The translations under genes were made by a program, and so were the position numbers. Source: Chloroflexota bacterium (GTDB taxonomy: Bacteria; Chloroflexota; UBA6077; FW602-bin22; JACPRP01). From it: 64,000 nucleotides of DNA. Positions 22,660 to 24,836 of the stretch are shown piece after piece. The DNA lies in assembly GCA_016189905.1 (NCBI GenBank), contig JACPRP010000118.1, positions 1-64,000 on the forward strand, written 5' to 3'. The stretch's first letter is position 1; each line of letters starts with the position of its first letter. The notes below the pieces were generated by a model. The model had not been told where the DNA came from, ran no database searches, and saw only the letters and a program-made list of their open reading frames with translations.

Positions 22660-23295
22660 ATGGTAGTAATCACGATATCTCGGCAACTCGGGAGTGGCGG
22701 TGGTGACGTTGGCAGAAGACTGGCCGAAAAGCTGGGCATCCCTTTCGTTGACGACGAGATCGTCAGCCGGGCGGCTAATCTTGCCGGTGTGTCTCAGGAT
22801 GCGTTAAGCGATGCGGATGAGCGCAGGCCTACGCTGCTCTCGCACATCGCTGACCTGCTGGCTCGATATCCGACTGCTGCGGAGCTAGGCGTCCCTGCTG
22901 TCGACATTGAGCCGTCGCTGACCCAGGATACCTATCGACATTTGATCGAGGATGTTATCAAGGATATCGCGAGCAAGGGCAGCGCTGTCATAGTGGGACG
23001 TGGCAGTCAGATGATTCTGCGAGGCAAACCCGACGCGCTTCACGTGCACGTGTATGCCCCGTTCGAGACCCGCGTGAAACGGCTTATGGAGCGAGATGCG
23101 ATTGGCCGTGCAGAGGCAGAGAAGAAGGCGCGCGAGAGCGATCGCGATCGAAGTGGATACATCAAGGGATTTTACAGGTCCGATTGGCAGAACCCTGATC
23201 TCTACGCGCTGATGATCAACACTGGCAGGCTGGATGTCGAAACCTCGGTGGACCTGATCATCGCCGCGACCAGGGCGACTGTCGGGAACATTTAG
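22660..23295 (+). CDS. Cytidylate kinase-like family protein
   Basis: 211 residues. The P-loop variant 'ISRQLGSGGGDVGRRLAEKL' and 'GIPFVDDEIVSRAA' mark the cytidylate-kinase-like family, which is distinct from true Cmk. 'GSAVIVGRGSQMILRG' and 'DRDRSGYIKGFYRSDW' are also typical. These proteins are presumed nucleotide kinases of unknown substrate. The stop codon overlaps the GTG of dprA by one base (TAGTG). Confidence 0.88.
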   Translation: MVVITISRQLGSGGGDVGRRLAEKLGIPFVDDEIVSRAANLAGVSQDALSDADERRPTLLSHIADLLARYPTAAELGVPAVDIEPSLTQDTYRHLIEDVIKDIASKGSAVIVGRGSQMILRGKPDALHVHVYAPFETRVKRLMERDAIGRAEAEKKARESDRDRSGYIKGFYRSDWQNPDLYALMINTGRLDVETSVDLIIAATRATVGNI

Positions 23296-24398
23296 TGCTG
23301 GATACCGCTAGGTACTGGGTCGGTTTTACTCTCGTTCCCGGTATAGGACCTGTCAGGCTCCGCCGCCTGCTGGATCACTTTGGCGATATCGAGCGTGCCT
23401 GGCGAGCCGACCCACATCACTATGCCCGGGCCGGGCTGGATGCTAAATTGGCCGAAGCGCTTGTCGCGGCAAGAGGGCGCGTCGACCTCGACGAGCAGAT
23501 GCGGCGAATCGCACGGCACGGGGTGGATATCCTCACATGGGATGATTCTCGTTACCCCGAGCGCCTGAAACACATCTATGCCTCTCCTTCCGTGCTGTAC
23601 CTGAAGGGAGAGATTCTTCCCCAGGATGACTGGTCAATCGCTGTCATCGGTACCAGACGAGCGTCGATCTATGGAAAGCAGGTCACAGAGCAATTAGTCG
23701 CTGGTCTGGTGGCCAACCATATCACGATACTGAGTGGACTGGCCCGAGGCATCGATTCTTACGCCCATCAGGCCTGTTTAGATGCTGGCGGAAGAACTAT
23801 CGCCGTGCTTGGCAGCGGCCTCGACGTGATATATCCGCCGGAGAACGCCAGGCTTGCTCGCCGAATCATAGACAACGGCGCCTTATTGTCGGAGTATCCT
23901 TTGGGGACCAAGCCCGACGCGAACAACTTTCCGCAGCGCAACCGGATCGTCAGCGGAATGAGCCTGGGCACGCTCGTGGTCGAAGGTGATACGGGAAGCG
24001 GCGCGATGCTCACCGCGGGGTTCGCCCTGGACCAGGGGCGTGAAGTTTTCGCCGTGCCGGGCAGCATCTTCCATCATACGAGCAAGGGTACGAATAAGCT
24101 GATCCAGCGCGGAGCGGCGAAGCTGGTGGTTACTGCCCAGGATATCCTGGAAGAGCTGAACCTGACGATGGCTCCGCAGCAGATGGAGATGCGAGAGTTG
24201 CTGCCGGAAAACCCTGCTGAGGCGGCTGTTTTGCGTGCGCTATCTGTCGAGCCAGTTCACATCGACGAGATATGCCGGGCATCGGGCCTGGCGATCTCGG
24301 AGGTCAGCGCTTCCCTTGCAATGATGGAGCTCAAGGGTATGGTGAAACACCTCGGCGGCATGAACTACGTACTGGGTCAGGCCCGTAGGGCCAAATAG
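23295..24398 (+). CDS. dprA: DNA-processing protein DprA
   Basis: 367 residues. DprA loads RecA on incoming single-stranded DNA in natural transformation. It has an N-terminal helix-hairpin region ('LVPGIGPVRLRRLLDHFG'), a Rossmann core with 'LSGLARGIDSYAHQACLDAG' and 'FPQRNRIVSGMSLGTLVVEG', and a C-terminal winged helix from about residue 305. It starts with GTG coupled to the preceding stop. No other competence gene is in the window. Confidence 0.94.
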   Translation: MLDTARYWVGFTLVPGIGPVRLRRLLDHFGDIERAWRADPHHYARAGLDAKLAEALVAARGRVDLDEQMRRIARHGVDILTWDDSRYPERLKHIYASPSVLYLKGEILPQDDWSIAVIGTRRASIYGKQVTEQLVAGLVANHITILSGLARGIDSYAHQACLDAGGRTIAVLGSGLDVIYPPENARLARRIIDNGALLSEYPLGTKPDANNFPQRNRIVSGMSLGTLVVEGDTGSGAMLTAGFALDQGREVFAVPGSIFHHTSKGTNKLIQRGAAKLVVTAQDILEELNLTMAPQQMEMRELLPENPAEAAVLRALSVEPVHIDEICRASGLAISEVSASLAMMELKGMVKHLGGMNYVLGQARRAK

Positions 24399-24728
24399 TT
24401 CTTGGTGCGATAATGAACCGTGGTGGTCCTTCGGAGAAGGATCTCTGACCGCCTGGGCTATCCATTTACCCATAACTCCATCTGCCCCACGGACGCACGG
24501 AGGGGAATGTAGCCGCAGGTCTTCCTCTCCGAGATGGCCCGCTCCTTTTGCATTGGATTGGAGCGGGCCGAGCCGCGTTCCGTTTGCTATGGGATGGAAC
24601 GCGACGATGGCGGCTCCATTTGCAGTATGATTGGGCCGCCCGGGGGGCGATATCTATTTCCGCACTAGAAACAAGATAGCGGTGCAAGTCCCAACCGAAG
24701 ACGGGGGATCGGGGAAGGGTAGCAGTGG
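24399..24728. other. Non-coding stretch after dprA
   Basis: No protein gene was recognised here. The stretch carries the row of stem-loops described separately at 24493-24645. Confidence 0.6.
24493..24645. repeat. Row of four stem-loops with similar loops
   Basis: Four consecutive hairpins with different stems and similar loops. H0: stem CGGAGGGGAA / TTCCTCTCCG (one G-T pair), 14-nt loop. H1: GGCCCGCTCC (24536-24545) / GGAGCGGGCC (24560-24569), loop TTTTGCATTGGATT. H2: CGCGTTCC (24574-24581) / GGAACGCG (24596-24603), loop GTTTGCTATGGGAT. H3: GGCGGCTC / GGGCCGCC, loop containing ATTTGCAGTATGATT. H1 to H3 share TTTGC early in the loop and a GAT-like end, while their stem sequences differ and still pair. 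The spacers are 4-5 nt. Confidence 0.65.
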
Positions 24729-24836
24729 CTACCCTGTCACCTTCGACCACACCCAGAAGAAAACGTACAGTACAACAGGTATGCCAACGGCAAATATGGC
24801 TGCGTTTTGGAGCGTTAACCTGACGGCCTCGTCCAT
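24729..24836 (-). CDS. Small single-pass membrane protein (35 aa)
   Basis: An ORF too short for normal gene calling. It begins 'MDEAVRLTLQNAAIFAVG', continues as a strongly hydrophobic helix ('IPVVLYVFFWVW') and ends 'SKVTG'. The ATG at 24836 is preceded by a full-length Shine-Dalgarno GGAGGTGAT (24855-24847) 10 nt upstream. The pattern of an N-terminal acidic end, one helix and a basic end fits a small accessory subunit of a membrane complex. Family unknown; resemblance to OadG-like small subunits is only a guess. Confidence 0.65.
   Translation of the reverse strand: MDEAVRLTLQNAAIFAVGIPVVLYVFFWVWSKVTG

Follow-up and report, generated by a model that had tools for sequence, protein, structure and literature searches.

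The hairpin array downstream of dprA is one copy of a lineage-specific set of dispersed, nested palindromic repeats, probably non-coding mobile DNA which would be copied by way of single-stranded hairpins and would preferably enter loops. The repeats are dispersed over the genome, conserved in structure, placed one within another and restricted to one lineage; that they spread as mobile single-strand hairpin DNA is the most likely explanation for these features.

The array after dprA

The window, i.e., the whole stretch of 64,000 nt that was analysed, is part of contig C106 of genome G000, a 3.53-Mb draft in 125 contigs that is 86% complete. In it, dprA (23295..24398, + strand; Pfam DNA_processg_A, E=2.2e-76, and DprA_WH, E=4e-16) stops just short of the repeat region. 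The first-pass annotation had described four adjacent hairpins with similar loops and different stems, filling the gap after this gene. The region concerned (24493-24645) does hold four non-overlapping hairpins of at least 8 bp with loops of 12–17 nt, as against a mean of 0.4 and a maximum of 3 in 2000 dinucleotide shuffles; three of them are copies of one unit, and in these three the similar loops and the different, still paired stems are indeed seen. Hairpin unit 1 (H2; 24536-24569, + strand, the unit extending to 24571 with a trailing GA) consists of the arms and loop GGCCCGCTCC / TTTTGCATTGGATT / GGAGCGGGCC with a 10-bp stem, and scores 46.5 bits with a covariance model of the hairpin alone (R1) and 67.9 bits with a 49-nt model of micro-hairpin plus hairpin (R2), whose match, 24524-24571, includes the micro-hairpin described below. 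Hairpin unit 2 (H3; 24574-24603 within the unit 24572..24605, + strand) reads CGCGTTCC / GTTTGCTATGGGAT / GGAACGCG and has an 8-bp core stem; hairpin unit 3 (H4; 24609-24640 within the unit 24608..24641, + strand) reads GGCGGCTCC / ATTTGCAGTATGATT / GGGCCGCC and has a stem of about 8 bp with one bulge or G-T pair. Their R1 scores are 43.7 and 40.5 bits, respectively, both units being among the seven sequences from which R1 was built.

The remaining hairpin, H1 (GGAGGGGAA/TTCCTCTCC; 24499..24530, + strand), has arms that pair in the window and are not conserved; its left arm is absent from the homologous arrays at loci L004, L006 and L008, so that H1 was ruled out as a conserved hairpin and its pairing is probably incidental. 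The conserved piece at this position is instead a micro-hairpin of 12 nt, CCTCTCCGAGAT (CTC-TCC-GAG-AT; 24524..24535, + strand), made of 3 bp, a TCC triloop and then AT. It adjoins the left half, GTAGCCGCAGG..., of a GTAG-type host palindrome (24509..24522, + strand), of which the window copy lacks the right half. The array does follow dprA and precede the next gene, as annotated, but it shares this gap with a small ORF of 35 codons (MDEAVRLTLQNAAIFAVGIPVVLYVFFWVWSKVTG; 24729..24836, − strand), the right-hand neighbour of the array and convergent with dprA. Its hydrophobic, previously unlisted product of 35 aa is conserved; in G001, the sole relative from the same family that was compared, the DNA beside dprA is 78% identical over 111 nt and encodes a similar small protein.

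Distinct from the hairpin array is a second short dispersed repeat at 24402..24458, CCGTGGTGGTCCTTCGGAGAAGGATCTCTGACCGCCTGGGC, with a CCTTC-GGA-GAAGG core and five more copies in the same genome (at C49, C113, C77, C66 and C24; E 2e-9 to 9e-7). On the reverse strand it reads as a CCTTC-TCC-GAAGG hairpin, the TCC triloop of which it has in common with the micro-hairpin.

Fixed loops, paired stems and modular units

Compared across loci, the unit is about 49 nt long and is composed of the micro-hairpin (3 bp, T-N-C triloop, AT), a 10-nt arm, the loop TTTTGCANNTGAGAT, the complementary arm and GA, so that (G)AT stands before the unit hairpins and GA after them. The micro-hairpin can be read from the loci as C-NNN-TNC-N'N'N'-AT. 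Among 60 candidate NNN-TNC-NNN-AT sites in arrays, 45 are fully complementary and fall into nine sequence forms, including CTC-TCC-GAG, CTT-TCC-AAG, CCC-TCC-GGG, CGC-TCC-GCG, CCT-TCC-AGG and ACT-TTC-AGT. Units occur singly (L028), in tandem (the window, L004, L008, L023) or nested (L034, L036, L046); at L034, one unit lies within the loop of another, A, in the order A-TTT[ CCCCTCCGGGAT-B-loop-B'-GA ]TGCANNTGAGAT-A'. Copies flanked by AACGGAT and copies flanked by CACGGAG form further groups. The former include a subfamily in the window's own genome (L029, L033, L041, L107, L109 and L119) with AACGGAT repeats on either side and a near-uniform GGCCGCGCCC stem. Also in this genome, four tandem 48-nt copies of one unit lie beside a parB-like gene (L023, 1500-1700). 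In the tsf-pyrH gap of G001 (L063, 1340-1790), a CCCTCT host, a CACGGAG repeat and a hairpin array are nested together, and the arms are mosaic and mismatched.

Twenty-two distinct left 10-nt arms surround the conserved TTTTGCANNTGAGAT loop. In 38 distinct matches, 96.7% of the cells pair and covariation is 0.602, as compared to 0.199 after shuffling and at most 0.105 with slid partners; a MAFFT alignment, which is not fitted to the model, gave 91.5% paired cells and a covariation of 0.635 versus 0.210. Heavy covariation is seen both in the stem of 10 bp and in the micro-hairpin stem of 3 bp. Because pairing was built into the model by which the loci had been detected, a search with the loop sequence only, blind to the stem, was also run. 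In G001, complementary arms of 6–11 bp were present around all eight exact loops (8/8), and loop matches elsewhere with one mismatch separated into real copies with at least 9 bp and mostly chance ones with 5 bp or fewer, the low-pairing group also taking in L068, a degenerate copy, and L066, which belongs to the tandem set of four at L023. Conservation is of sequence in loops and linkers, and mainly of pairing in the stems. The structure-based conservation claimed in the first-pass annotation is thereby strongly supported, with fixed loops on stems that differ and still pair.

Distribution and host palindromes

By BLAST against relatives, the array was located at several unrelated places in G001. 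A covariance-model search of relatives, which the first-pass annotation had proposed, gave 21 matches in G000 and 20 in G001 with R2 at E≤0.01 (the best at about 1e-14), and 14 and 21 units, respectively, with R1 at E≤0.1. No R1 match was found in 39 other relatives or, at E≤0.001 and with stricter filters, in about 300 genomes of the phylum, and the rest of the class gave no convincing R2 match (29 genomes searched in all); two R2 matches from the same order, in G007 and G002 (E about 0.003–0.005), were rejected since they have odd loops and resemble coding sequence. A GTDB scan with the loop pattern returned only contigs of FK_Sedi_B_Bin.47, a metagenome-assembled genome carrying the same loci as G001. 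With a loose pattern in the window's own genome, the real arrays found were the window and one more, L013, and three matches in coding sequence were set aside as chance. The array had no match in Rfam, either at the gathering threshold or at E≤5, the family had none in plasmid, phage and viral collections, and no account of it was found in the open-access literature. Judged by these searches, the family is lineage-specific, being confined to two related uncultured Chloroflexota genomes, both drafts (86–88% complete), within a poorly sampled family.

In each of the two genomes there are about 15 loci, and 22 of 23 examined arrays are situated within intergenic gaps or at their edges. Every arrangement of the flanking genes is represented, with several copies in divergent gaps. 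Relative to upstream or neighbouring genes, 11 arrays have the same and 10 the opposite orientation, i.e., there is no bias (21 scored by hand, on gene calls from a simple dicodon score rather than a trained gene finder). At orthologous sites, the array is present after dprA in G000 and missing there in G001; conversely, the sites downstream of rplL and in the tsf-pyrH gap are occupied in G001 and empty in G000, this gap measuring about 436 nt versus about 67 nt, a pattern that rests on two draft genomes of one poorly sampled family and could reflect gain or loss either way.

Several arrays are themselves placed inside other palindromes. Both halves of the GTAG-type palindrome flank the array at L004, L006 and L008, and the bare palindrome, GTAGCCGCAGGCTTCAGCCTGCG, is present at seven places across the two genomes. 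At L006, the array interrupts GTAGCCGCAGGCTTCAGCCTGCG in the loop, giving GTAGCCGCAGGCTT[TCC...GA]AGCCTGCG, and the same insert is found again at L008 within GTATAGCCGCAGGCTT, a host differing from GTAGCCGCAGGCTTCAGCCTGCG by a one-base change. A second host, CCCTCTCCCTCTGGGAGAGGGTCAGGGTGAGGG (CCCTCTCCCTCTGGGAGAGGG...GGGTGAGGG), occurs in the bare form and, at L026, in the split form; CCCTCTCCC hosts are seen both split and bare. Several inserts, though not all, are bordered by a GA dinucleotide, and no longer target-site duplication is consistent across loci. Copies in the loops of other palindromes suggest mobile DNA that targets hairpins. At L032 (about 1460-1660, − strand), a CCCTCTCCC host palindrome seems to be broken by another palindrome, with the ends TTCAGGGGCGGACAG/CTGTCCGCCCCTGAA and CTTTGGG on either side, which resembles the target duplication of a MITE.

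Possible modes of spread

Functional RNA is normally inferred strongly from covarying stems with fixed loops, and the first-pass annotation accordingly saw tandem protein-binding sites in RNA, or a repeat-type RNA. Such a cis- or trans-acting RNA, with tandem transcript hairpins binding a protein via their TTTTGC...GAT loops, would have the conserved loops and covarying stems typical of structured RNA, and the RNA fold of 24400-24700 (z = -3.9) agrees with it; on the TTTTGC strand, raw G-T pairs moreover exceed A-C mismatches 12 to 3, which fits RNA, though many copies, tandem ones included, have a common origin, and G-T pairs are also tolerated in hairpins of single-strand DNA. Against it stand the lack of orientation bias (11 versus 10) and the use of every gene arrangement at about 15 loci per genome, the presence or absence of arrays at the orthologous dprA, rplL and tsf-pyrH sites, the copies within other repeats, and the restriction to one family, with no Rfam counterpart. 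The RNA-binding-site reading is disfavoured and appears improbable; mobile palindromic DNA fits better than a dedicated RNA because the repeats are dispersed, free in orientation, present or absent between genomes, and often located inside other palindromes. Ordinary transcription terminators or stabilisers of mRNA 3′-ends, situated after dprA by chance, have next to no likelihood: the window array does sit between convergent genes and contains one weak terminator-like match (24637-24649), but a single match is not above the shuffles (mean 0.6), the loops of 14–16 nt are large and without U-tracts, and divergent gaps hold several copies, so the terminator reading was rejected.

A serious rival to enzyme-driven mobility, even if not a likely one, is spread and upkeep without any enzyme, in which template switching during replication, together with recombination, would copy, nest and repair the hairpins, and neither a transposase nor a function would be involved. 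Correction of quasi-palindromes perfects stems without selection, so template switching could keep palindromes perfect by itself; the tandem 48-nt copies at L023 and the mosaic arms at L063 resemble products of replication or recombination. Besides, no match to the Y1 transposase (Pfam PF01797) was found in G000 and G001, where a gene may be missed at 86–88% completeness, while 5 of 14 control genomes were positive. Alone, however, template switching leaves unexplained why the loop, the micro-hairpin and the GA end are conserved, and how a defined 49-nt unit was dispersed over some 15 unlinked loci in either genome.

In the preferred explanation, mobile hairpin DNA, the unit would be copied as a single-stranded hairpin, and a candidate enzyme would recognise the loop sequence together with the shape of the stem, as is the case for some TnpA-REP enzymes. 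These need loop bases and good pairing of the stem (PMC8266576), a requirement that would yield fixed loops and freer stems. Copies would preferentially enter the loops of existing hairpins, nesting would build up the modular arrays, and transcripts would be affected, if at all, only secondarily. A narrower proposal, put forward only tentatively, is that the family targets single-stranded hairpin loops, is read by its loop and micro-hairpin with any paired stem, and is moved by a putative non-Y1 single-strand recombinase.

The family is REP-like in habit, with variable stems and fixed loops. Like bacterial GTAG REPs, the units are short, GC-rich, intergenic palindromes that are dispersed and at times clustered, and in Thermomicrobium roseum, also of the Chloroflexota, some GTAG-23 REPs lie inside other small palindromes (PMC3733652). 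By two tested features, the GTAG tag and the Y1 transposase, it is not a GTAG REP: the foot of the unit carries no GTAG (or CGTC), GTAG belonging to the separate host palindrome, and the Y1 transposase of REP/RAYT systems was not found in either draft. Further, the unit has a fixed loop and micro-hairpin on stems that are free to vary. Yeast mitochondrial GC clusters and the hairpin-forming elements of sponges are mobile or dispersed and often GC-rich, they merge, shuffle and form multi-hairpin arrays, and GC clusters have short AG or ACT repeats at their borders (PMC4478555, PMC2800124); there, however, conservation lies in the stems and variation in the loops, which is the opposite of the unit described here.

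In its manner of working, the family is most like the nested, loop-conserved palindromes of Volvox carteri organelles (PMC2670323): these are selfish-looking, about 50 nt long, have a conserved loop on stems of varied length, and are inserted within one another. They differ from the unit in their loops of 3–5 nt (TAAA/TTTA) and in belonging to algal organelle DNA; a separate micro-hairpin module does not appear to be described for them, and no sequence relation is claimed. The nested modular layout is a bacterial counterpart of the Volvox organelle palindromes. Targeting of hairpin loops, if real, would imply an enzyme acting on single-strand DNA outside the Y1 transposase model. As the signature of fixed loops and covarying stems is found here in apparent mobile DNA, it calls for caution when RNAs are sought in metagenomes.
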